A DNA stretch of 64,000 nucleotides from Armatimonadota bacterium (GTDB lineage: Bacteria > Sysuimicrobiota > Sysuimicrobiia > Sysuimicrobiales > Kaftiobacteriaceae). The notes below the pieces were generated by a model that was not told the DNA's origin, made no database searches, and saw nothing but the letters and a program-made list of their open reading frames with translations. The DNA lies in contig JAVKHY010000004.1 of NCBI GenBank assembly GCA_031459765.1, positions 62,001-126,000 of the forward strand, given 5' to 3'. Within the stretch, counting starts at the first letter, position 1, and each line of letters starts with the position of its first letter. Below are positions 4,239-31,467 of this stretch, piece by piece. The position numbers and the translations under genes are program-made.

Positions 4239-5492
4239 ATGGGCGGACACGACGCGTCGTTCTACAGGGCGTCGGAAGGGCGCCCGCACGCCGAGCGTCT
4301 GCGGGAGCAGGAGGGGCGCCTGCGGGCAGTGCTGACGCAGGCTTTTGACGTCTCGGCGGCCATCCGGCACGCCCTGGCCACGGCCGGGCTGTCCCCGCGA
4401 ACCATCACCCTGGCCGACCTGCCGCGGCTACCGCTGGTGCGCAAGGATCGCCTGCCGGCGCTGCAGGCCCAGGCCCCGCCCTTCGGCGGATGGCTCGGCG
4501 CGCCCCCGGCAGAGCTGCGCCGCATCTTCGTCTCCCCGGGACCGATCTACGACCCGGAGGGCCGGGAGCCCGACTACTGGGGGTTCGCTCCGGCCCTGCA
4601 CGCCGCCGGCTTCCGCCGGGGCGACGTGGTGCTGAACGCCTTCTCCCACCACCTCACCCCCGCCGGCGCCATGTTCGAAGGGGCACTGGAGGCGCTGGGC
4701 TGCGTGGCGGTGCCCACAGGGGTGGGCAACGTGGAGATCCAGGCCAAGACCGCCATCGACCTGCGGGCCCGGGGATTCATCGGGACCCCGAGTTTCCTGG
4801 CCACGGTGCTGGCCAAGCTCGACGAGCTGCAGGCGGCCTCACCGCTGGCCCTGGCCTTCGTCTCCGGCGAACCGCTGGACGAGGCGCAACGGAACGACCT
4901 GGAGCGCCGGTTCGGGCTGCGGATCAGCCAGGGCTATGCCATCGCCGATCTCGGTCTGATCGCCTACGAGTGCCCCGAGCGCCGCGGCCTGCACCTGGAC
5001 GACCGAGTCATTGTGGAGCTGGTCGATCCCCGCACGGGCACGGCGCCGCCCCGCGGAGTCCCCGGGGAGGTCGTCGTGACCTTCCTCAGCCCGGTCTATC
5101 CGATCCTGCGCCTGGCCACGGGCGACCTCTCGCACTTCGCCGACGGCGATTGCCCCTGCGGCCGTACCGCGCCGCGGCTGACGCGCATCGAGGGACGCAT
5201 CGGGGAGGGGGTCAAAGTCCGCGGCATCTTCCTCTATCCCCACGACCTGGAGCGGGCGCTGGCCCGCTTCCCCGAGGTCCGCCGGTACCAGGCCATCGTC
5301 ACCCGCGAGGGACTGCTCGACGAACTGATCGTCCGCGTGGCCGGCGATGCCCCCGACCGCGAGGCGCTGGCCGGGCGGATCGCCCAGAGCGTCTACGAGG
5401 CGACGCGGCTGCGGGCCACCGTCGAAGTGGTGCCGCCCGGGGTGGTCTGGCCGGAAGAAAAGAAGATCGTCGATCGACGCCCCGCGTCCTGA
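4239..5492 (+). CDS. Phenylacetate-CoA ligase-like AMP-dependent synthetase
   Basis: 417-aa member of the ANL superfamily resembling PaaK (phenylacetate-CoA ligase). PaaK-like features are the early FYRASEGRPHAERLREQ helix, the central DYWGFAPALHAAGFRRGDVV region, LPLVRKDRLPAL, and the GEVVVTFLSPVYPILRLATGD / CPCGRTAPRLTRIEGR segments near the C-terminus. The classical SSGTTG loop is replaced by SPGPIYDPEG, which departs from PaaK proper, so the substrate is uncertain and activity may be altered. It is divergent from the LIV operon, whose second gene is also an acyl-CoA ligase; joint action on imported acids is inference. Confidence 0.8.
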   Translation: MGGHDASFYRASEGRPHAERLREQEGRLRAVLTQAFDVSAAIRHALATAGLSPRTITLADLPRLPLVRKDRLPALQAQAPPFGGWLGAPPAELRRIFVSPGPIYDPEGREPDYWGFAPALHAAGFRRGDVVLNAFSHHLTPAGAMFEGALEALGCVAVPTGVGNVEIQAKTAIDLRARGFIGTPSFLATVLAKLDELQAASPLALAFVSGEPLDEAQRNDLERRFGLRISQGYAIADLGLIAYECPERRGLHLDDRVIVELVDPRTGTAPPRGVPGEVVVTFLSPVYPILRLATGDLSHFADGDCPCGRTAPRLTRIEGRIGEGVKVRGIFLYPHDLERALARFPEVRRYQAIVTREGLLDELIVRVAGDAPDREALAGRIAQSVYEATRLRATVEVVPPGVVWPEEKKIVDRRPAS

Positions 5493-5519
5493 GCGGCCAC
5501 CGAAGGGAGGGCCACCCTG

Positions 5520-5548
5520 TTGACAAGAGCACAGGGGTCCGGTAGACT
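5520..5548 (+). promoter_or_regulatory. Housekeeping (sigma-70/A) promoter of the ilv-leu operon
   Basis: A perfect -35 box TTGACA at 5520-5525 is followed by a 17-nt spacer and the -10 box TAGACT at 5543-5548. Transcription would start near 5555, immediately before the ykkC-class aptamer, which gives the leader a natural 5' end. Confidence 0.8.
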
Positions 5549-5561
5549 TCCCTTCAAGTTC

Positions 5562-5706
5562 CAGAAGAGGAAGTGCGCCTAGGGTTCCACGGCTTCACAA
5601 GAGCCGGTCGGTCCAAGCGGCGCAGGCGGCCGGGCGCGGCCGCTACACCGTCAGGATAAAAGCCTGAGGGATAGGTTCCTCCAGAATCTATCGCTCAGGC
5701 TTGTTG
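5562..5706 (+). promoter_or_regulatory. ykkC-class riboswitch (subtype 2, ppGpp-type suspected) with intrinsic terminator
   Basis: The leader holds the ykkC family signature in order: CTAGGGTTCC (5579-5588), a GGCT/AGCC hairpin, GGTCCAAGCGG (5610-5620), a GCGGCC/GGCCGC hairpin (5626-5643), TACACCG, then the hallmark GGATAAAAGCC (5654-5664). A short hairpin TCAGG/CCTGA (5651-5655 with 5663-5667) shares bases with a long terminator stem AAGCCTGAG (5660-5668) : CTCAGGCTT (5694-5702), extended inside by GATAG/CTATC and followed by TTGTTGCT. Aptamer and terminator are therefore mutually exclusive, as in a ligand-ON switch. ykkC subtypes bind guanidine, ppGpp, PRPP or nucleoside diphosphates; ppGpp is favoured here only because ppGpp riboswitches are known to precede branched-chain amino acid genes. 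Confidence 0.8.
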
Positions 5707-5744
5707 CTATCCGGGTCCGGTGAGCGGATCCGGTGCCGTGATTG

Positions 5745-5992
5745 CCGGGCGATGACGGGAAGCAGTAGACGCCGGCGGGCGCTTTCCAGAGAGCCGTGGG
5801 GGGTGGAATCCGGCAGCCGACGCCGCGTCGAACTCGTCCCTGAGCCGCGACGCCGACCCCTGACCGGCTAGGCGTCGCCGGCAGCCGCCGTTACCGGTGC
5901 GAGTGCCGGCGGCTCGGTCCTGAGGACCGGTCGCTGGAACTAAGGTGGTACCGCGGGAGCACCCGCCCTTAGGGTGTCTCCCGCGCTGTGTT
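5745..5992 (+). promoter_or_regulatory. T-box leader of the ilv-leu operon, leucine (CUC) specifier
   Basis: Stem I begins near 5745 and shows AGAGAGCCG (5788-5796) and the distal loop sequence GGTGGAATCCGG. The specifier context GAA-CTC-G places codon CUC (Leu) at 5833-5835. The T-box AAGGTGGTACCGCGGG is at 5942-5957. Antiterminator pairing CTAAGG (5940-5945) with CCTTAG (5967-5972) competes with a terminator stem GCGGGAG (5953-5959) : CTCCCGC (5978-5984), followed by a T-rich stretch. Uncharged tRNA-Leu would stabilise the antiterminator and allow read-through into ilvB. B. subtilis ilv-leu uses the same specifier codon. Confidence 0.93.
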
Positions 5993-6025
5993 TCTTGCGG
6001 CCTACAGGGCCGGGAGGAGAGTGTC

Positions 6026-7747
6026 ATGGCCCGTCAGATCGAGGCAGCACCGGGCAGGCGTGCCCTCCGCGCCAGGACGATGACCGGTGCGCAGATCCTG
6101 GTGGAGGCGCTGCGGCGGGAAGGGGTGGAGATCATCTTTGGCCATCCCGGCGGGGCCTCTTTGCCGATCTACGACGCCCTGTACGATGCGAAGGACATCC
6201 GCCACATCCTCGTCCGCCACGAACAGGTGGCCGCGCACGCCGCCGTGGGCTACGCCCGCGCCTCCGGCCGGGTCGGGGTCTGCACCGCGACCTCGGGGCC
6301 CGGCGCCACGAACCTGGTGACGGGCATCACGGACGCCATGATGGACTCCATTCCGATCGTGGCCATCACCGGTCAGGTGCCCCGGCCCGTCATCGGCAAC
6401 GACGCCTTCCAGGAAGCGGATGTTACCGGCGTGACGATGCCGATTACGAAGTGGAACCACCTGGTCCTGGAGGTGGGCGATGTGGCGCCCTCCGTGCAGC
6501 GCGCCTTCTACCTGGCCCGAACGGGGCGGCCGGGCCCGGTACTGGTGGACCTCCCGCGCGACGTCCTGCAGGAGAGCGCCGTCCCGGCCTTCCTCGACGG
6601 CATCCCGGTTCCCGGATACCGTCCGGTCCTCGACGGCAACCCCAGGCAGATCGCCGCGGCGGCGGAGCTGCTGGCGACCGCGACGCGGCCGGTGATCTAT
6701 GCCGGCGGAGGGGTGATCAGCGCCGGAGCCAGCGCCGAGCTGACGGCGCTGGCCGAGCGCACGGGCATTCCCGTCACCCTCACCCTGATGGGCAAGGGGG
6801 CGATGGACGAGACCCACCCTCTGTGCCTGGGGATGCTCGGCATGCACGGGAGCGTCTACGCCAACTACGCGGTGCACGAGGCCGACGTCATCCTCGCCGT
6901 CGGCGTGCGCTTCGACGACCGCGTGACGGGCAGGCTGCGGGATTTCGCCCCCCGGGCCCGGTTCATCCACATCGACATCGACCCGGCGGAGATCGGCAAG
7001 AACAAGCCGGCGCACATCCCCATCGTGGGAGACGCCTCCCGGGTTCTGGCCGCCCTGGCCTCTCAGGTCCGCGCCCCCCAGATCGACGGCTGGTGGGCAC
7101 AGATCAACACCTGGCGGCGGCGCTACCCGTTCCGGTACCGGCAGGGCGAGGCCACCGTCAGCGCCCAGTACGTCTGCGACCAGCTGAACCGGATCACCGG
7201 CGGCGAGGCCGTCGTCACCACCGATGTGGGACAGCACCAGATGTGGATGGCGCAGTGGTACCGGCCGCGCGGGCCGCGCCGCTTCATCTCCTCGGGTGGG
7301 CTCGGCGTGATGGGGTTCGGGTTCCCGGCGGCCCTGGGGGCGAAGTTCGCCTGCCCGGAGAGCCTTGTGGTGGCGGTGGTGGGGGACGGCGGCTTTCAGA
7401 TGACGATGCAGGATCTCAGCACCGCCGTCGAGTACCGAATGGCTCTGCCGATCATCGTCCTGAACAACGGCGCCCTGGGGATGGTGCGCCAGTGGCAGAC
7501 CTTCTTCTACCGCGACCGGCGGTCGGCGTCCATCCTGCGCAACCCCGACTTCGCCCGCGTGGCCGAGGCCTTCGGCGCCCGCGGGATCCGCGTGGAGCGG
7601 CCGGAGCAGGTCGAACCCGCGCTGCGCAGCGCTTTGGCCGTCGAGGACGGGCCGGTGGTGGTGGACATCCGGTGCGATCCCGAGGAGAACTGCCTGCCCA
7701 TGATCCCTTCGGGCCAGTCCGTGGCCGAGATGATCATCGATGAGTGA
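6026..7747 (+). CDS. ilvB: Acetolactate synthase, large (catalytic) subunit
   Basis: ThDP-, FAD- and Mg-dependent enzyme condensing two pyruvates, or pyruvate with 2-oxobutyrate; first common step of Ile/Val/Leu synthesis; 573 aa. The ATG at 6026 was chosen because it follows GGGAGGAG by 7 nt; an upstream in-frame start would lie inside the T-box terminator. Motifs: catalytic glutamate in VRHEQVAAHAAVGYARASG, the FAD-region VGVRFDDRVTGRL, and the ThDP-binding VGDGGFQMTMQDL...NNGALGMVRQWQ near the C-terminus. First gene of the operon; its end overlaps ilvN by 8 bp, which suggests translational coupling of the two subunits. Confidence 0.97.
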   Translation: MARQIEAAPGRRALRARTMTGAQILVEALRREGVEIIFGHPGGASLPIYDALYDAKDIRHILVRHEQVAAHAAVGYARASGRVGVCTATSGPGATNLVTGITDAMMDSIPIVAITGQVPRPVIGNDAFQEADVTGVTMPITKWNHLVLEVGDVAPSVQRAFYLARTGRPGPVLVDLPRDVLQESAVPAFLDGIPVPGYRPVLDGNPRQIAAAAELLATATRPVIYAGGGVISAGASAELTALAERTGIPVTLTLMGKGAMDETHPLCLGMLGMHGSVYANYAVHEADVILAVGVRFDDRVTGRLRDFAPRARFIHIDIDPAEIGKNKPAHIPIVGDASRVLAALASQVRAPQIDGWWAQINTWRRRYPFRYRQGEATVSAQYVCDQLNRITGGEAVVTTDVGQHQMWMAQWYRPRGPRRFISSGGLGVMGFGFPAALGAKFACPESLVVAVVGDGGFQMTMQDLSTAVEYRMALPIIVLNNGALGMVRQWQTFFYRDRRSASILRNPDFARVAEAFGARGIRVERPEQVEPALRSALAVEDGPVVVDIRCDPEENCLPMIPSGQSVAEMIIDE

Positions 7748-8243
7748 GGTGGAGGCGGCCGTGGCCACGATCAGCGTTCTGGTGGACAACAGCCCCGGCG
7801 TGCTGGTGCGTGTCGCGGGCCTGATCCGCCGGCGCGGCGTGAACATCCACAGCCTGTCTGTGGGCCCGACGGAGAACCCGGCGATCTCGCGGATGACCAT
7901 TGTCGTGGACACCCCGCCCGAGCGCACGGAACAGTTCGCCAAGCAGCTGCGCAAGCTCGTCGAGGTGCGGCGGGCGACCGCGGTGGACGGGGCGGCCACG
8001 GTGGACCGCGAGCTGGCCCTGGTGAAGGTGAACGCCACGCCCGGCACGCGGATGGAGATCATGGAAATCGCCAACGTCTTCCGGGCCAGCGTGGTGGACC
8101 TCACCGACCGGACGATGACCCTGGAGGTCACCGGCAAGGGCGAGAAGATCGACGCCATCCTGTCGCTGCTGGCCAAACACGGCATCCGGGAGGTGGCCCG
8201 CACCGGCCAGGTCACGCTGGTCCGCGGCGCGCAGGCGACCTAG
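7740..8243 (+). CDS. ilvN: Acetolactate synthase, small (regulatory) subunit
   Basis: 167-aa regulatory partner of IlvB (IlvH/IlvN family) that normally confers valine feedback inhibition and stimulates catalysis. An N-terminal ACT domain (about residues 8-80) has the conserved [20 protein letters not shown] and [11 protein letters not shown] stretches. The C-terminal domain contains [10 protein letters not shown] and the [14 protein letters not shown]-like segment. Length is standard. The ATG at 7740 lies within the end of ilvB, in the typical overlapping arrangement. Confidence 0.95.
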
Positions 8244-8305
8244 GGCGAGCGCCGAGGGCGCACCGGCCCCTTGGCGGACACGCCCATACCGCAAGGAGGT
8301 GGAAG

Positions 8306-9331
8306 ATGGCCAGGATCTACTACGACCAGGATGCGCCGCTGACCCCGCTGGCGGGGCGCACCGTGGCGGTCATCGGATACGGCAGCCAGGGCCACGCCCA
8401 TGCCCTGAACCTGCGGGACAGCGGAGTGAACGTTGTGGTGGGGCTCTACCGGGGGAGCGCCTCCTGGGCGAAGGCGGAGGCGGAGGGGCTGACCGTGGCC
8501 GCCGTGGGCGAGGCGGCGGCGCGGGCCGACGTCGTGGCGATGCTGGTCCCCGACCACGTGCAGCGCACCCTCTACGACCAGGAGATCGCCCCGCACCTGC
8601 GCCCGGGGCGGACGCTGCTCTTCGCCCACGGGTTCAACATCCACTACAACCAGATCCAGCCTGCGCCCGACACCGACGTGGTGATGATCGCGCCGAAGGC
8701 TCCCGGCCACCGGATGCGGGAGCTGTTCGTGGAGGGAGCCAGCGTCCCGGCGCTCCTGGCCGTCCACCGGGACGCCTCGGGACAGGCCAAAGCCACCGCG
8801 CTGGCCTATGCCCGGGGGATCGGCTGCACGAAGGCGGGCGTCATCGAGACGACCTTCCGCGAGGAGACGGAGACCGACCTGTTCGGGGAGCAGGCCGTGC
8901 TGTGCGGCGGGATCACCAGCCTGATCAAGGCGGGCTTCGAGACCCTGGTGGAGGCGGGATACTCCCCGGAGATTGCCTACTTCGAGTGTCTGAACGAGAT
9001 GAAGCTCATTGTCGACCTCATCTACGAAGGCGGGTTTTCCTACATGCGGTACTCGGTGTCCGACACGGCGGAGTACGGCGACTACACCCGCGGGGGGGCG
9101 GTTATCGACCAGCACGTCCGCGAGGCGATGCGCCGGATCCTCCGGGAGGTGCAGGACGGCACCTTCGCCAGGGAGTGGGTCCTGGAGAACCAGGCCGGTC
9201 GGCCCGCCATGACGGCGTACCGTCGCCTGGAGGCGGCGCACCCGATCGAGGAGGTCGGCCGACGCCTGCGCGCCATGATGCCCTGGCTCCGCCGTCGGGC
9301 CGCCTCGCCGGAACCGGTCGGAGCCTCCTGA
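8306..9331 (+). CDS. ilvC: Ketol-acid reductoisomerase, class I
   Basis: Isomerises and reduces acetolactate or acetohydroxybutyrate with NADPH and Mg2+. 341 aa, the length of short class I enzymes. The Rossmann motif [18 protein letters not shown] is at about residues 25-42, followed by the cofactor-selecting loop YRGSASW. The knotted C-terminal domain carries the metal ligands in [22 protein letters not shown] and [19 protein letters not shown] strong AAGGAGGTGGA ribosome site precedes the ATG. The C-terminal extension after MMPWLRRR is short and probably disordered. One base separates its stop from the leuA start. Confidence 0.97.
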
Positions 9332-9332
9332 G

Positions 9333-10904
9333 ATGCACACGGTGCCGCGGCCGGTGCGCCCGGAACGGGTCTGGATCTTCGACACGACGCTGCGCGACGG
9401 CGAGCAGTCGCCGGGGTTCTCCATGAGTGCCGACGAGAAGGTGGAGATGGCGCGGCAGCTGGCGCATCTGGGCGTGGATGTGATTGAGGCGGGATTTCCC
9501 GTCTCCTCCCCGGGCGAGTTCGAGGCGGCGCGGAGGGTGGCCCAGGAGGTGGCGGGACCGACGGTCTGCGTCCTGGCCCGGACCGCGCCCGGGGATATCG
9601 AGCGAGCCTGGGAGGCGGTGCGGGAGGCGGAGCGTCCCCGTATCCACACCTTCATCGCCACCTCGCCGATCCACATGGCCCGGAAACTGCGCATGAGTCC
9701 TGAGGCCGTCCTGGAGTCGGCCGCCGACGCCGTGCGGCTGGCGCGCCGGCTGTGTCCGGAGGTGGAGTTCAGCGCGGAGGACGCCACGCGATCGGACGTC
9801 GAGTTTCTCTGCCGCGTCTTCGAGGCGGCGATCAACGCGGGGGCGGCCGTGATCAACATCCCGGACACCGTCGGCTACGCCCAGCCGGAGGAGTTCGCCG
9901 CGCTGGTGCGGACCCTGATCGAGCGCGTCCCCGGCATGGAGGCGGTCACGGTCAGCGTGCACTGTCACGACGACCTGGGCCTGGCCACGGCCAACACCCT
10001 GGCCGGGATCCGGGCCGGCGCCCGGCAGGTCGAGGGCACGATCAACGGCATCGGGGAGCGGGCCGGCAACGCCGCCCTGGAAGAGGTGATCATGGCGTTG
10101 CATACGCGCGCCGACCGCTACGGCCTGACCACAGGCGTGGACACGACGCAGATCGCCGCCACCAGCCGGCTGCTCTGCGCCCTCACCGGCATCGAGGTCC
10201 AGCCCAACAAGGCCGTGGTCGGGGCCAACGCCTTCGCCCATGAGGCAGGGATTCACCAGCACGGGGTGCTGATGGATCGGGCCACCTACGAGATCATGAC
10301 CCCCGAGTCGGTGGGCCTGCCCGCCAACCGGCTGGTCCTGGGCAAACACTCTGGCCGCCACGCGCTGGCCGCGGTGCTGGAGGCGGCGGGATTCCGGCTC
10401 AGCCGGGAGGAGGTGGACCGCGTCTACCGCCGGTTCAAGGAGGTGGCCGACCGGAAGAAGACGGTGCTGCCCGAGGAACTCGTGGCGCTGGTCGAGGATG
10501 ACCTGGCCGCCCCGCCCTCCACCTGGGAGCTGAGCGGCTTCGAGGTGACGACCGGCAGCGCCCGGAAACCCTCGGCGGTGGTGGCGCTCACCTCCGGCGG
10601 CCGCCGCATCGAGCGGACGGCGACGGGAGACGGTCCGGTAGACGCCATCTTCGCGGCGATCAACGACATCGTCGCCATGAGGCCGGCGCTGGTGGACTAC
10701 ACGGTCCGCGCCGTGGCCGGCGGCGCGGAGGCGGTGGGCGAGGCCGTGGCGCGCCTCCGGCTGGACGGCGCGCTGGCGGTGGGCCGCGCGAGCAGCACCG
10801 ACGTCCTCGAAGCCAGCGCCCGGGCCTATCTAGCGGCGATCAACAAGCTGCTGGCCCGCCGCGCGGCATCCGTGGTCCCGGGAGGGTCCCGCGCGTGGGC
10901 ATGA
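9333..10904 (+). CDS. leuA: 2-isopropylmalate synthase
   Basis: Condenses 2-ketoisovalerate with acetyl-CoA, the committed step of leucine synthesis; 523 aa, standard for the bacterial LeuA type 1 family. The TIM-barrel catalytic domain starts with the DRE-TIM signature [13 protein letters not shown] (about residues 13-25); later motifs are the metal ligands in [14 protein letters not shown] and [17 protein letters not shown]. The C-terminal third (from about residue 390) is the LeuA dimer regulatory domain that usually mediates leucine feedback inhibition. Homocitrate or citramalate synthase would be the alternative for this fold, but the operon context argues for LeuA. Confidence 0.95.
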
Positions 10905-12181
10905 CCATGACCGAGAAGATCCTCGCCGCGCACAGCGGGGTCCCCTCGGTCCGCCCGGGAGAGATCGTGGACTGCCGGGTCGATTTCGCCTTCGCCAACG
11001 ACATCACCGCCCCCCTGGCCATCCAGGAGTTTCAGAAGATGGGCGGCGAGGCCGTCTTCGATCCCGACCGGGTGGCCTTCGTCCTCGACCACTACGTCCC
11101 CAACAAAGACATCGCCTCCGCCGACCAGGCCCGCATCACGCGGGAGTTTGTGCGGGCCCAGGGACTGCCCCACTTCTACGACGTCGGCCGCGCCGGCATC
11201 GCCCACGTCCTCCTCGCCGAGGAGGGCTTTGTCGGTCCGGGCGACCTCTTCGTCGGCGCCGACTCCCACACGTGCAACCACGGGGCCCTGGGCGCCTTCG
11301 CCACCGGGGTCGGCTCCTCCGACCTGGCCGCGGCCCTGATCACCGGCCGCCTCTGGCTGCGGGTGCCACAGACCCTGCGCTTCGTCCTGCGGGGACGGCC
11401 GCGGCCCTGGGTGACGGGCAAGGACCTGGTCCTGACCATCATCGGGATGATCGGCGTGGACGGCGCGCGCTACGCGGCGATGGAGTTCGCCGGCGACGCC
11501 CTGGCCTTCCTGACGATGGACGAACGGTTCTCCATCACCAACATGGCGGTGGAGGCCGGCGCCAAGAACGGCATCATGGAACCCGACGAGCGGACGCTGG
11601 GGTGGATCGCTCCGCGCGCCCGCCGGCCGTTCACGGTGGTCCGGTCCGACCCCGACGCGGCGTACGCCGATGTGCGGACGATCGAGGTGGACAGCCTGGA
11701 CCCGGTGGTTGCCGCTCCGTCGTCTCCCGGCAACGTCGTCCCGGTCCGGGAGGCGGCGGGGGTGCCTGTGGACCAGTGCTTCATCGGCACCTGCACCAAC
11801 GGGCGCCTGGAGGACCTCCGCATGGCGGCGCGGATCCTGTCCGGCCGCACGGTGCACCGGGACACGCGCCTGCTCGTCATCCCGGCGACCCCCGCAATCT
11901 ACCGCCAGGCACTGGAGGAGGGACTGATCCGGATCTTTCTCGACGCCGGCGCCGCGGTCAGCACATCGACCTGCGGGCCGTGCATCGGAGGACACATGGG
12001 CGTGCTCGGTGCCGGGGAGGTCTGCGTCTCGACCAGCAGCCGGAACTTCGTCGGACGGATGGGCCACAGGACCAGCCGCGTCTACCTGGCCAACGCGGCG
12101 GTGGCGGCGGCCACGGCGGTGACCGGTCGGTTGACCCATCCCGCGGACGTCGTCGGCGAAGCGGTGCCGGCCCGGGGATGA
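10895..12181 (+). CDS. leuC: 3-isopropylmalate dehydratase, large subunit
   Basis: [4Fe-4S] hydro-lyase subunit isomerising 2- to 3-isopropylmalate together with LeuD. 428 aa, matching the shorter archaeal-type/homoaconitase-like LeuC rather than the roughly 466-aa proteobacterial type. Cluster cysteines lie in CFIGTCTNGRLEDLRMA and STSTCGPCIGGHMG; substrate-side motifs are FVLDHYVPNKD and GADSHTCNHGALGAFATGVGSSD. GTG at 10895 lies 8 nt after GGAGGG; ATG at 10901, overlapping the leuA stop as ATGA, is an equally plausible start two codons later. Confidence 0.95.
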   Translation: MGMTMTEKILAAHSGVPSVRPGEIVDCRVDFAFANDITAPLAIQEFQKMGGEAVFDPDRVAFVLDHYVPNKDIASADQARITREFVRAQGLPHFYDVGRAGIAHVLLAEEGFVGPGDLFVGADSHTCNHGALGAFATGVGSSDLAAALITGRLWLRVPQTLRFVLRGRPRPWVTGKDLVLTIIGMIGVDGARYAAMEFAGDALAFLTMDERFSITNMAVEAGAKNGIMEPDERTLGWIAPRARRPFTVVRSDPDAAYADVRTIEVDSLDPVVAAPSSPGNVVPVREAAGVPVDQCFIGTCTNGRLEDLRMAARILSGRTVHRDTRLLVIPATPAIYRQALEEGLIRIFLDAGAAVSTSTCGPCIGGHMGVLGAGEVCVSTSSRNFVGRMGHRTSRVYLANAAVAAATAVTGRLTHPADVVGEAVPARG

Positions 12182-12185
12182 GGCG

Positions 12186-12695
12186 ATGATCCGGCGGGGT
12201 CGGGCCCATGTCGTCGGCCACCACATCGATACCGACGTGATTATTCCGGCGCGCTACCTGGTGACCGCGGACCCGGCGGACCTGGCGCGGCATGCGTTCG
12301 AAGATCTCGACCCGTCGCTGCGCGAGCAGATCGGAGAGGGCGACATCCTCATTGCCGGCGAGAACTTCGGCCAGGGCAGTTCCCGGGAACACGCCCCCCT
12401 GGCCCTCCGGGGGCTGGGCCTCGCCGCGGTGGTGGCGGCTTCCTTCGCCCGGATCTTCTACCGCAACGCCTTCAACGTCGGCCTGCCTCTGCTCGAGTGC
12501 CCTGCGGCCGCCGGCGGCGTGCGGGACGGCGATGTGGTGGAGGTGGACTTCGGGGCCGGCACCGTACGCAACCTGACGCGGGGGGACCTCTACCGCGGCC
12601 AGCCGATTCCGGAGTTCATGCAGCGCCTGGTCGATGCGGGGGGACTGGTGGGCTACATCCGGGCCCAGCGCCGGGCGCTGCAGGAGCGGGGATAG
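12186..12695 (+). CDS. leuD: 3-isopropylmalate dehydratase, small subunit
   Basis: Swivelling domain subunit of isopropylmalate isomerase, 169 aa, again of the short archaeal-type size that pairs with the 428-aa LeuC. The N-terminus has HHIDTDVIIPARYL; the conserved active-site region GENFGQGSSREHAPLALRGLG is at about residues 58-78, followed by SFARIFYRNAFNVGLPLLEC. It starts 4 bp after leuC. A small ORF with its own strong ribosome site lies between leuD and leuB. Confidence 0.95.
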   Translation: MIRRGRAHVVGHHIDTDVIIPARYLVTADPADLARHAFEDLDPSLREQIGEGDILIAGENFGQGSSREHAPLALRGLGLAAVVAASFARIFYRNAFNVGLPLLECPAAAGGVRDGDVVEVDFGAGTVRNLTRGDLYRGQPIPEFMQRLVDAGGLVGYIRAQRRALQERG

Positions 12696-12727
12696 CGCAG
12701 CCTTTGTGGCACAGAGGAGGAATATCG

Positions 12728-12871
12728 ATGTCGGAGTCCGCATCCCGGAGCGGTGAGCGCCGGGGCAAGACGGAGTCGGAAGCGGAACAGCGCCGCGAGC
12801 CCGACGAAACCGCCGGGCCGGAGTGGGTCCTGGAGCGAATCCAGCAGACCTTCGAGACGCGCCGGGGGTGA
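12728..12871 (+). CDS. Small hydrophilic protein, unknown function (47 aa)
   Basis: A 47-codon ORF with a strong ribosome site (AGAGGAGG, 7 nt before the ATG) sits in the 185-bp gap between leuD and leuB, inside the operon. The product is highly charged (SRSGERRGKTESEAEQRREP) with a more ordered C-terminus PEWVLERIQQTFETRRG that could form one amphipathic helix. No signal peptide, membrane segment or cysteine is present. I do not recognise a family. The ribosome site, frame and tight fit argue for translation; a role in Leu/Ile/Val synthesis is only suggested by position. Confidence 0.6.
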   Translation: MSESASRSGERRGKTESEAEQRREPDETAGPEWVLERIQQTFETRRG

Positions 12872-12880
12872 CCGCGCCCG

Positions 12881-13948
12881 GTGAGGATCGCCGTCCTGCC
12901 GGGTGACGGCGTCGGCCCGGAGGTGACGGCCGAAGCCGTGAGGGTGCTCGTCGCCTCCGCCCGCCGCCACGGTCTGGCCGTCGAGACCGCGGACGGGCTC
13001 ATCGGGGGCGCGGCACTGGAACGGACCGGCCGTCCGCTCCCGGCGGAGACGGTGGACCTCTGTCGTACCGCCGATGCCGTGCTGCTGGGGGCTGTGGGCG
13101 GCCCACGGTGGGACGATCTGCCGGGCGACCGGCGGCCGGAGCGGGGACTCCTCGAGCTCCGCCGCGCCCTGGGGGTGTACGCCAATCTGCGGCCGGCGCG
13201 CGTCTTCCCCTCCCTGCTGGACCGGGCGCCGCTGCGGCCGGAGGTCGCCTCGGGGACGGATCTCCTCATCGTCAGGGAGCTCACCGGGGGCCTGTACTTC
13301 GGCACGCCGCGGGGCCGCGACGGGGATGAGGCCGTGGACACGCTGCGCTACCGACGCCAGGAGATCCGGCGCCTCGTTCGCACGGGGCTGGATGCGGCGC
13401 GGCGCCGCCGCCGGCGCCTGACCTCGGTGGACAAGGCGAACGTGCTGGAAACCTCCCGGCTGTGGCGGGAGGTGGTGGTGGAGGAGGCCGCCGCGTTCCC
13501 GGAGGTTGCCGTCGAGCACATGCTGGTGGACACCTGCGCCATGCAGCTGGTCCGCGCCCCCCGCGCCTTCGATGTGATCGTGACAGAGAACATGTTCGGC
13601 GACATCCTCAGCGACGAAGCCGGCGCCGTGGTCGGGTCGATGGGACTCCTCCCGTCGGCCAGCCTGGGGGAGACGCCTCCCTTCCTCTATGAGCCGGTGC
13701 ACGGATCGGCGCCGGACATCGCGGGGAAGGGGATCGCCAACCCCGTCGGCGCGATCCTCAGCGCGGCGTTGATGGTCCGCCACTCCTTCCGCCGACCCGA
13801 GATCGCCGCCGAAATCGAAGCCGCGGTGGAGGCGGCGATCGCCGCCGGCGTGCGCACCCCCGATCTCGGAGGAACGGCGACCACGGCGGAGATGGGGGAG
13901 GCGGTGGTCGCCGCGCTGTCCCGGGTTGCGGGGTCGGGAGGACGGTGA
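12881..13948 (+). CDS. leuB: 3-isopropylmalate dehydrogenase
   Basis: NAD-dependent oxidative decarboxylation of 3-isopropylmalate; 355 aa, the normal LeuB length. GTG start at 12881 ([15 protein letters not shown]). Motifs: [12 protein letters not shown], the substrate-binding arginines in [14 protein letters not shown], the [10 protein letters not shown] loop diagnostic of LeuB rather than isocitrate dehydrogenase, [18 protein letters not shown], and the metal-binding aspartates in [14 protein letters not shown]. The C-terminal nucleotide-binding [18 protein letters not shown] is intact. GTGA overlap with ilvD suggests coupled translation. Confidence 0.97.
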
Positions 13949-15702
13949 AGATGGCGATGCCGGAGTGCAGGGCGGAGGTTCGCGAGCCCAGGGCGGAGGT
14001 TCGCAACTCCAGGGCGGAGGTTCACGAGCGCAACGCAGCATTCCGCGAGCACAGCGCGCGGCTGCTCGACGGGCCGGACCGCGCGCCGGCACGCTCCTAC
14101 TTCAGGGCCATCGGGCTGACCGACGAGGACCTGCGCCGTCCCCTGATCGGCATCGCCAACACCTGGATCGAGCTTATGCCCTGCAACTACCACCTGCGGC
14201 GCCTCGCCGAGCAGGTGAAGTCGGGTGTCCGTGAGGCGGGCGGGACGCCCCTGGAGTTCAACACCATCGCCATCTCCGACGGCATCTCCATGGGGACCGA
14301 GGGGATGCGCACCTCCCTGGTCAGCCGGGAGATCATTGCCGACTCCATCGAGCTCGTCGCCCGCGGCTATCTGCTGGACGGGCTGGTGGCCATCGCCGGG
14401 TGCGACAAGACGATCCCGGGAGCGGTCATGGCCCTGGCCCGTCTCAACCTCCCCGCCCTCCTGCTGTACGGCGGGTCGATCGCCCCCGGAAGGTTCCGGG
14501 GCAGGGATGTCACCGTGCAGGACGTCTTTGAGGCGGTCGGCGCCTACCATGCGGGCCGGCTGGATGCGGCGCAGCTGGCGGAGCTCGAATCCGCCGCCTG
14601 TCCGGGCCCGGGCGCCTGCGGCGGGCAGTTCACCGCCAACACCATGGCGATGGCTTTTGAGGTGATGGGGATCAGCCCCATGGGCAGCGCCGACATCCCG
14701 GCCATGTCCCCGGACAAGGACGCCGCCGCACGGGAGGCCGGTCGCCTGGTGATGGGACTGCTCCGCGCCGGAATTCGTCCGAGGGAGATCATCACCCGTC
14801 GCTCGCTGGAGAACGCGATCACGGCGGTGGCCGCCTCGGGGGGCTCCACGAACGCCGTGCTCCACCTGCTGGCCGTCGCTCAGGAGGCGGGGGTTCCCCT
14901 GACCATCGACGACTTCGACCGCCTCAGCGGGCGCACGCCCCTGATCGTCGACCTGAAACCGGGGGGCCGCTTCACCGCCGTGGATCTGCACCGCGCCGGC
15001 GGCATCCGGCTGGTGACGCAGCGGCTGCTGGAGGCGGGCCTGCTGCACGGCGAGACGATCACCGCCAGCGGCCGGACGCTTGCCGCCGAGGCCGCCGTGG
15101 CCCGAGAGAGCCCCGGCCAGGAGGTCGTTCGTCCGGTCAAAGATCCGCTGGAGCCCACCGGAGGGCTGGCCATCCTGCGCGGCAACCTGGCTCCCGAGGG
15201 ATGCGTGGTGAAGCTGGCCGGCTCCGCGCGCCGCACGCACCGGGGGCCGGCGAAGGTGTTCGACTCCGAGGAGGAGGCGTTCCAGGCCGTCGCCGGCGGG
15301 AAGATCCGCCCGGGAGACGTCGTCGTCATCCGCTACGAAGGGCCGGTCGGCGGCCCCGGCATGCGCGAGATGCTCGCCGTCACCGCCGCACTCGTGGGCG
15401 CAGGCCTCGGCGAGTCGGTGGCGCTGCTCACCGACGGTCGCTTCTCCGGGGCGACCCACGGCCTGATGGCCGGTCACGTCGCTCCTGAAGCCGCCCGCGG
15501 CGGTCCGATCGCGGCGCTGCGCGACGGGGATCTCATTGTCTTCGATGTGCCCGCCCGCCGGCTCGACGTCGCCCTCTCCGAGGCGGCGCTGACGGAGCGT
15601 CTGGCCTCGTGGCGGCCGCCGGCGCCCCGCTACAGCGGCGGTGCGCTGGCGAAGTACGCCCGCCTGGTGTCCTCCGCAGCCCTCGGCGCCGTCACGCGCT
15701 GA
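13945..15702 (+). CDS. ilvD: Dihydroxy-acid dehydratase
   Basis: Iron-sulfur dehydratase making 2-keto acids for valine, isoleucine and leucine; 585 aa from GTG 13945 (ATG at 13951 has better ribosome-site spacing). Cluster and active-site motifs: [16 protein letters not shown] (about residue 152) and [19 protein letters not shown] (about 217). [19 protein letters not shown] near the C-terminus is also diagnostic of IlvD. The first 29 residues or so are not conserved family sequence; they are encoded by a 21-bp triplicate (RAEV repeats). The conserved region begins around [21 protein letters not shown]. Last gene of the operon. Confidence 0.96.
13968..14030 (+). repeat. Three tandem 21-bp units in the ilvD N-terminal codons
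   Basis: Units at 13968-13988, 13989-14009 and 14010-14030 share CAGGGCGGAGGTTCGC or near variants and differ mainly in the last six bases. They encode RAEVREP / RAEVRNS / RAEVHER, a charged N-terminal extension ahead of the dehydratase domain. The in-frame period means copy-number change would not shift the frame. Confidence 0.9.
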
Positions 15703-20267: not shown

Positions 20268-20274
20268 GGGGCCG

Positions 20275-20450
20275 AGCAATGAAGGAGCTCGCCCCTCCCG
20301 AGCGTTCGCCGAACGTCAGCACGTAAGGCGACGGAGGCCTCCGATATCGGCCCCACGAGAGCCCCGGGGCCGTGTATCCTCCGGGGAAGATGGGTGGTAC
20401 CGCGGGAGCGCTGCTCGCTCTCGTCCCTGAGGGGACGAGGGCGTTCTTTT
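20275..20450 (+). promoter_or_regulatory. T-box leader of alaS
   Basis: A clear T-box GGGTGGTACCGCGG is at 20392-20405, preceded by a Stem III hairpin CCCCGG (20362-20367) : CCGGGG (20381-20386). The CGTCCC segment can pair with GATGGG to form the antiterminator, or with GGGACG in a 12-bp terminator (20416-20427 with 20432-20443) that ends in TTCTTTTA. Only about 118 nt separate the predicted start site from the T-box, so Stem I is shorter than usual and I could not assign the specifier codon; Ala is inferred from the gene controlled. Confidence 0.88.
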
Positions 20451-30529: not shown

Positions 30530-30537
30530 GTCCTCGC

Positions 30538-30614
30538 GAAAAGGCAAACCCAGGGCAACCTGGGGGCGCAAAGCTACGGGGCCTTCCCGTAAGGAAGGCC
30601 AGCCGGGCTGCCGA
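30538..30614 (+). promoter_or_regulatory. Class I c-di-GMP riboswitch (GEMM-I)
   Basis: All conserved GEMM-I blocks are present in order: AAGGCAAACC (30541-30550), the P2 hairpin CCCAGG-GCAA-CCTGGG (30549-30564) with a GNRA tetraloop, GGCGCAAAGCTACGGG (30565-30580), the P3 hairpin GGCCTTCC (30580-30587) : GGAAGGCC (30593-30600), then AGCCGGGCTGCCG (30601-30613). P1 forms between GGCA and TGCC. It lies 60 nt upstream of a sigma factor start codon on the same strand. Confidence 0.95.
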
Positions 30615-30616
30615 AC

Positions 30617-30672: not shown

Positions 30673-31467
30673 ATGGCGCGCAGTCGCGCCGCCGTCCGCA
30701 ACGGGGGAGGTGCAGTGGGGCCGGCGGAGTCGCCCGAGGCGCTGTTCCGGGCCTACCGCTCCACGCGGGATCGAGAGATCCATGCGCGCCTGACCTGCCT
30801 GTACATGCCGCTGGTGCACCAGGTGGCCCGCCGCTACAGCCGGTCGGGGGTGCCGCTGGAGGACCTGCACCAGATCGGCTACATCGGGCTGATGAACGCC
30901 GTCGCCCATTTCGACCCCGACCGCAGCGTCAAGTTTGAAACCTATGCCCGACACCTGATCGCGGGGGAGATCCGGCACTATCTCCGCGACCAGGGGACCA
31001 CGGTGCGGCGGCCGCGCTGGCTGTACGAGATGGACCACCGGGTGAGCCGGGCGATCACCGAGCTCACCCAGCGCAAGGGCCGCACCCCCACCGTCGCCGA
31101 GATCGCCGGGGAGGTGCAGCTGGCGGAAGACGAGGTGCAGCAGGTGCTGCACGCCCGAGAGTCCCTGCGCTTCCTCTCCCTGGACGAGGAGCGGGAGGGG
31201 GACGACGGCGCACCCATCGCCCAGCGCGACCGCATCGCCGCCCGGCAGCTTCCGGCGGGTATAGGTGAAGAGGAACAGGTGTTGATTGCGGACGCCATCC
31301 AGCGCCTCTCGGAGCTGCAGCGAAAGGTGATCTACTACCTGTTCTACATGGATCTGACGCAGACCGAGGCGGCGAGGGAACTGGGCATCTCCCAGAAACA
31401 CGTCTCCCGGGTCATGCATGCCGCCCTGCGGCGGCTGCGGGAGACGATGCGGCCGGAGACGGCCTAG
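30673..31467 (+). CDS. SigB/SigF-type alternative sigma factor
   Basis: 264-aa sigma-70 family protein of group 3. Region 2: YMPLVHQVARRYSRSGVPLEDLHQIGYIGLMNAVAHFDPDR, then FETYARHLIAGEIRHYLRD, as in the SigB/SigF/SigG subfamily. Region 3: AITELTQRKGRTPTVAEIAGEVQL. Region 4: LSELQRKVIYYLFYMDLTQTEAARELGISQKHVSRVMHAALRRLRE with its helix-turn-helix. No region 1.1 is present. No anti-sigma or anti-anti-sigma gene is adjacent; control instead appears to lie in the preceding c-di-GMP riboswitch. It heads the MerR-Roadblock-pilB-pilT-pilC gene series. Confidence 0.93.
   Translation: MARSRAAVRNGGGAVGPAESPEALFRAYRSTRDREIHARLTCLYMPLVHQVARRYSRSGVPLEDLHQIGYIGLMNAVAHFDPDRSVKFETYARHLIAGEIRHYLRDQGTTVRRPRWLYEMDHRVSRAITELTQRKGRTPTVAEIAGEVQLAEDEVQQVLHARESLRFLSLDEEREGDDGAPIAQRDRIAARQLPAGIGEEEQVLIADAIQRLSELQRKVIYYLFYMDLTQTEAARELGISQKHVSRVMHAALRRLRETMRPETA

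Follow-up and report, generated by a model that had tools for sequence, protein, structure and literature searches.

Which signals control the ilv-leu operon of this high-GC bacterium, and how are they combined on one leader transcript? The leader in question lies in the window, by which we mean the whole analysed stretch of 64,000 nucleotides from genome G000 (2.8 Mb, 29 contigs). According to the preliminary description, a promoter, a ykkC-class aptamer with its own terminator and a T-box with a second terminator are arranged serially on this leader. Rfam matches, folds and the promoter scan agree on this arrangement. The coordinates and hairpins given earlier proved correct as well, with hairpin 5660-5702 folding exactly as described.

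Architecture of the leader

The features of the leader and of the operon are as follows.

5520..5548, + strand: sigma-70-type promoter, TTGACA-17-TAGACT (sequence scan)
5567..5681, + strand: ykkC-class aptamer, most likely of subtype 2a (ppGpp) (RF00442 match, P0 pairing, diagnostic nucleotides)
5567-5572/5676-5681, + strand: P0 helix of the aptamer
5618, + strand: C at the position of guanidine A46 and PRPP C49 (excludes guanidine-I)
5667, + strand: A at the position of PRPP G96 and guanidine G89 (points to ppGpp)
5660..5702, + strand: predicted terminator hairpin 1, U-poor tail from 5703
5743..5973, + strand: T-box riboswitch, Leu-specific
5833..5835, + strand: specifier codon CUC (Leu) within GAACUCGUC
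5940..5972, + strand: T-box antiterminator, UGGU bulge at 5946-5949 (sequence; RNAalifold consensus of relatives)
5952..5985, + strand: predicted terminator hairpin 2, tail 5986-5997
6026..7747, + strand: ilvB, encoding the large subunit of acetolactate synthase and opening the operon (NCBIfam TIGR00118, 800.9 bits)
7740..15702, + strand: remaining operon, ilvN to ilvD (NCBIfam matches and ORFs), namely
7740-8243, + strand: ilvN
8306-9331, + strand: ilvC
9333-10904, + strand: leuA
10895-12181, + strand: leuC
12186-12695, + strand: leuD
12881-13948, + strand: leuB
13945-15702, + strand: ilvD

The leader fills the interval between the end of the upstream gene at 5492 and the start of ilvB at 6026, downstream of which the gene order is ilvB-ilvN-ilvC-leuA-leuC-leuD-leuB-ilvD. 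The promoter is the sole promoter-like site in 5400-6060, where shuffled sequences lead to an expectation of 0.0. Rfam cmscan placed RF00442 at 5568-5672 with 66.1 bits (gathering 63, E 6e-11), and the ykkC core of P1, P2 and P3 is present with the conserved CUAGGGUUCC and AUAAAAG. Further downstream, RF00230 matched at 5743-5973 with 80 bits (E 4e-17), a full-length match under the strict gathering score of 93, in which stem I with the specifier, the antiterminator with UGGU and a competing terminator were recognized.

The preliminary description had furthermore claimed mutually exclusive folds for both elements, which is borne out by the overlap of each terminator with its competing fold. 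Hairpin 5660-5702 consists of two 9-bp helices with an intervening G/G mismatch and uses the 3′ half of P3 together with the P0 strand of the aptamer, the shared segment being 5660-5681. Hairpin 5952-5985 uses the T-box antiterminator, with 5952-5972 as the shared segment. The folding energy of 5645-5715 is -34.5 kcal/mol (z -5.5), and the stretch surrounding the second hairpin yielded z -3.4.

Conservation in related genomes

The search for ykkC elements covered G000 and 60 relatives. All 44 loci detected lie inside G000-G042, a group made up of G000 and the genomes that the genome list places in its genus, family or order; it is called the phylum in the following. Judged by IlvB, the nearest relatives of G000 are metagenome-derived genomes with the label Armatimonadetes or Terrabacteria group ANGP1. 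CSP1-3, renamed Sysuimicrobiota, was formerly placed near Armatimonadota (PMC11604079); G000 probably belongs to this phylum. As judged by tblastn or locus reading, each of the 44 loci lies ahead of ilvB, gltB or cimA, the two other ykkC elements of G000 (L002, L003) preceding gltB and cimA. Guanidine or purine genes were found downstream of none of the 44. Eighteen loci precede ilvB, and a T-box intervenes in every one of them.

These 18 tandem leaders agree in element order and in the CUC specifier, and in each of them one promoter of the form TTGACA-N17/18-TANNNT lies ahead of the aptamer; a search for an internal promoter able to bypass the first switch gave none in any of them. Both predicted ON switches consequently reside on one transcript, each with its own hairpin. 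Aptamer pairs are kept in 95.6% of cells of the 18-leader alignment, with 8 pairs in which both partners have changed (a count as high was reached in 0/500 shuffles), P0 pairs are kept in 99.1% of cells, and the T-box fold exhibits compensatory changes at 17 pairs. No covariation was observed in the terminator-1 pairs of these leaders, because the pairs overlap invariant aptamer bases.

A simple terminator scan called no terminator in this leader, which is explained by the short, interrupted U-tracts at the two hairpins (UUGUUGCU; CUGUGUUUCUUG). Better U-tails occur in most relatives, for instance CUUUUU and GUGUUUUUUU. The poor U-tracts suggest that the window copy may be leaky. At first sight the weak tract UUGUUGCU would also fit a leader regulated by the T-box alone, with hairpin 1 as a leaky or vestigial terminator. 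However, 92.6% of cells in the alignment of the 18 homologous leaders preserve the pairing of terminator 1, most relatives carry 4-6 consecutive U at this terminator, and the aptamer core is nearly invariant across the phylum, which makes a functionless first element unlikely. We retain a leader with two working switches as the preferred reading.

Two further peculiarities of the tandem loci were observed. In three relatives the gene for a ThDP enzyme, acetolactate-synthase-like, lies 3′ of the tandem leader (L019:616-2529, L117:1805-3106 and L119:1874-3109); the best NCBIfam matches of these genes are weak (E ~1e-20), and the L019 enzyme comprises 637 aa and is positioned ahead of ilvB. In the ilvB T-boxes of L108 and L114, the stem III region carries a long inserted hairpin in which AGTTGGA-like units recur.

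Subtype of the aptamer

The Rfam label 'Guanidine-I' was rejected at face value, since the RF00442 model covers all ykkC subtypes, and the assignment was instead based on the published ppGpp consensus (PMC6031431; PMC5912903). Position 46/49 is A in guanidine aptamers and a pyrimidine in ppGpp and PRPP aptamers, position 96/89 is G in PRPP and guanidine aptamers and A, C, U or nothing in ppGpp aptamers, and extra conserved tails forming P0 are found in ppGpp and PRPP aptamers (PMC6031431). Controls from Bacillota were grouped by their downstream gene, i.e. SMR transporters, purE/purB/purD/NCS2 permeases, or ilvE/ilvD.

Position 49 is A or G in the SMR-transporter controls (A in most), U or C in 40/40 purine-gene controls (mostly U), and C in 7/7 ppGpp (ilvE/ilvD) controls and in 44/44 phylum loci. 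At position 96 the purine-gene loci carry G (GCCCAG[GA]CGG) and those ilvE loci whose junction is complete carry A (CCCAAGCGG); by P3 pairing (CC.GAGGG) all 44 phylum loci carry A as well. The register is fixed by the C81-G95 pair, which is conserved in 42/43 phylum loci (a single C-to-U change leaves the pairing intact) and places A at 96. In the Rfam alignment of the window copy the long-range C-G pair is broken (C/A). P0 of the window reads GAGGAA/UUCCUC and resembles the ppGpp controls (GGAAG..AGGUUCC), unlike the purine loci (GAAAG..AGGUUUC). Branched-chain amino acid genes and glutamate synthase are among the known contexts of subtype 2a (PMC5912903).

Since diagnostic nucleotides, P0 and gene contexts agree, the aptamer most likely belongs to subtype 2a, and we infer ppGpp as its ligand. 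In favour of this reading, independent ppGpp-type aptamers of Bacillota ilvE/ilvD leaders also adjoin T-boxes, in the reverse order. That the RNA is a guanidine-I riboswitch, in keeping with its Rfam label and the reached RF00442 gathering score, is extremely improbable in view of C instead of A at position 49, the broken long-range pair, the presence of P0 and the lack of guanidine genes near any of the 44 loci.

Whole-model scores fail to split ppGpp from PRPP aptamers. Covariance models were built on n = 7 ppGpp and n = 20 PRPP sequences (a guanidine model ended up with an unusual consensus structure), and the window scored 77.8 bits with the ppGpp model, which comprises 7 similar Bacillota sequences only, versus 94.8 bits with the PRPP model. 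The resulting PRPP-minus-ppGpp margin of +17 is just under those of held-out PRPP loci (~+19 to +45) and above those of held-out ppGpp-like loci (-13 to +9); across the phylum the margin ranges from about +4.5 to +20. This failure is likely due to the S-turn, which forms part of the pocket: compared with the junction of the Bacillota ppGpp controls (AGCGGAUAGG), that of the phylum (AGGGAUAGG) lacks one nucleotide. The call at position 96 is therefore partly alignment-dependent, and one alternative alignment of the shortened S-turn, of low posterior, sets a G opposite G96. Such an alignment and the higher raw score would favour a PRPP aptamer (2b), which would couple ilv-leu expression to nucleotide precursor supply and tRNA-Leu. 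We consider this improbable, given the A that C81-G95 pairing places at 96, a P0 and a C at position 49 that both follow the ppGpp controls, and the lack of a purine gene downstream of any of the 44 loci.

The shortened S-turn itself could alternatively signify a different ligand for the phylum aptamers, e.g. pppGpp, pGpp or a nucleoside diphosphate, by which the tandem gate would gain a new first input. The variant is present in 44/44 phylum loci and in 0 of 398 sampled Bacillota genomes, and NUDIX-linked RNAs (2c type) share a similar GAGGGGGAAGG junction. Nevertheless, the 2c controls have G at 49, a junction of full length and another 5′ tail, and both the ppGpp and the PRPP model give them far lower scores. 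The phylum gene contexts are the known 2a contexts. Furthermore, some ppGpp aptamers lack position 96 (PMC6031431), and length variation is therefore expected there. A shifted ligand accordingly has little probability, comparable to that of PRPP, and ppGpp is kept as the preferred ligand.

Subtype 2c as such was rejected for the window aptamer, despite the similar junction, because the 2c controls differ at position 49 and in the 5′ tail and score low. The ykkC RNAs located before NUDIX hydrolase genes were those of L217, L218 and L223, all with G at 49 and the junction GAGGGGGAAGG.

Leucine T-box and neighbouring RNA elements

The CUC specifier, conserved in all 18 tandem leaders, is matched in the genome by one gene for tRNA-Leu(GAG), whose discriminator A73 fits the T-box UGGU at 5946-5949. 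G000 furthermore encodes one Rsh enzyme of 734 aa.

A second T-box with a CUC specifier precedes ilvE of G000 (L265, G000:C4:43421-43739), ~18 kb upstream of the window, and harbours a complete tRNA-Ala(GGC) gene inside its stem III (L265:200-560, G000:C4:43400-43760). The layout GAGCG-GAUAGCGU-[tRNA]-ACGCUGUC-AA matches the published T-box motif RRRxG-stem III-AA (PMC7583486). The 47 tRNA matches of G000 include no other tRNA-Ala(GGC) gene; a partial match located at the end of a contig yielded no tRNA. Among 24 phylum ilvE loci (L265 of G000 and L267-L289 of relatives) tRNA-Ala(GGC) is located between the 5′ strand of stem III and the T-box motif in 18; the tRNA occurs without a recognisable T-box motif in 3, the T-box without the tRNA in 2, and the tRNA upstream of the T-box in 1. 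The tRNA would be transcribed upstream of the T-box terminator, and its supply should therefore not depend on the switch. The literature search found no precedent for a tRNA gene inside a T-box stem III, which is weak evidence of novelty.

Within the window, another T-box with a very short stem I lies at 20270-20431 (+ strand) before a putative alaS, identified by eye. A c-di-GMP-I-GGC riboswitch was detected at 30534-30616 (+ strand; RF03167, 65.6 bits, gathering 59), a GEMM variant associated with c-AMP-GMP; the gene 3′ of it, with a start near 30715, appears by eye to encode a sigma-70-family sigma factor.

Proposed two-input gate

The preliminary description had made the gate conditional: if the aptamer were of the ppGpp subtype, ppGpp and uncharged tRNA-Leu would act in an AND-like manner. 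This is supported by the diagnostic nucleotides, P0, the gene contexts, the invariant CUC, the matching tRNA-Leu(GAG) and the Rsh enzyme. RNA polymerase would start near 5555 and transcribe the subtype 2a aptamer first. The aptamer and terminator 1 share 5660-5681, so ligand binding should permit readthrough: with ppGpp bound, P0 and P3 would stay folded, hairpin 5660-5702 would be blocked and transcription would continue, while without ppGpp most polymerases would halt at this hairpin. Those that pass would reach the T-box, whose CUC specifier is predicted to read tRNA-Leu(GAG). As segment 5952-5972 is common to the antiterminator and terminator 2, stabilisation of the antiterminator by uncharged tRNA-Leu should likewise permit readthrough, and with charged tRNA-Leu terminator 5952-5985 would remain. 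Full ilv-leu expression would thereby be attained only with both starvation signals high.

As order, CUC specifier and single upstream promoter are shared by 18/18 leaders, two ON-switches in series are the best reading, and from the sequence evidence we infer that the leader is probably a two-input transcription attenuator for ppGpp and uncharged tRNA-Leu, i.e. a soft AND gate. The undecided covariance scores and the shorter junction are the reason for grading it as probable and for leaving room for a shifted ligand. The two signals are expected to be correlated, because Rsh makes ppGpp in response to uncharged tRNA as well; the effect may therefore be a sharper thresholding and not a true independence of the inputs.

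In several families (18 loci) the tandem is the standard ilvB leader, which brings a rare two-sensor RNA gate into an uncultured high-GC phylum. Together, the ilvB aptamers and the single ppGpp-type aptamers ahead of gltB and cimA would constitute a compact predicted ppGpp-riboswitch regulon, and their pocket variants, shorter by one nucleotide, represent natural material for tests of ligand choice in ykkC RNAs.

Comparison with known systems

The preliminary description had implied that the combination of ppGpp riboswitch and T-box(Leu) is new. The corresponding AND gate was, however, already described in 2018, drawn in either order (PMC5912903, Fig. 6C), and a tabulation of 2022 lists 15 cases of ppGpp riboswitch followed by T-box(Leu) and 16 of the reversed order (PMC9481103, Table 2). 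The need for both inputs is a prediction in the published cases, too (PMC9481103). The addition made here is the occurrence of the gate throughout an uncultured phylum, the two-sensor design itself having been published; no description of the phylum's tandem leaders was found in the literature examined, although the published 15 may include them.

The present leaders resemble the published ppGpp-T-box(Leu) gate (PMC5912903; PMC9481103) in the sensors, their order, the separate serial expression platforms and the branched-chain operon. They differ in the host, a high-GC uncultured phylum, in the weak U-tracts of the window copy, and in the S-turn, which has one nucleotide fewer than that of the Bacillota examples retrieved for comparison. 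The reverse T-box(Leu)-ppGpp tandem (PMC9481103) has the same inputs in opposite order, and its aptamer keeps the GCGG segment; we found it at five Bacillota loci before ilvE/ilvD (L214, L215, L219, L220 and L221), of which L220 and L221 look like copies. The ykkC 2b PRPP riboswitch shares the fold, P0 and a pyrimidine at position 49, but differs by G96 with the GCGG segment and by purine genes downstream. Guanidine-I riboswitches proper (RF00442) share the P1-P3 core and differ by A at 46/49, an intact long-range C-G pair, the lack of P0 and SMR transporter genes downstream.
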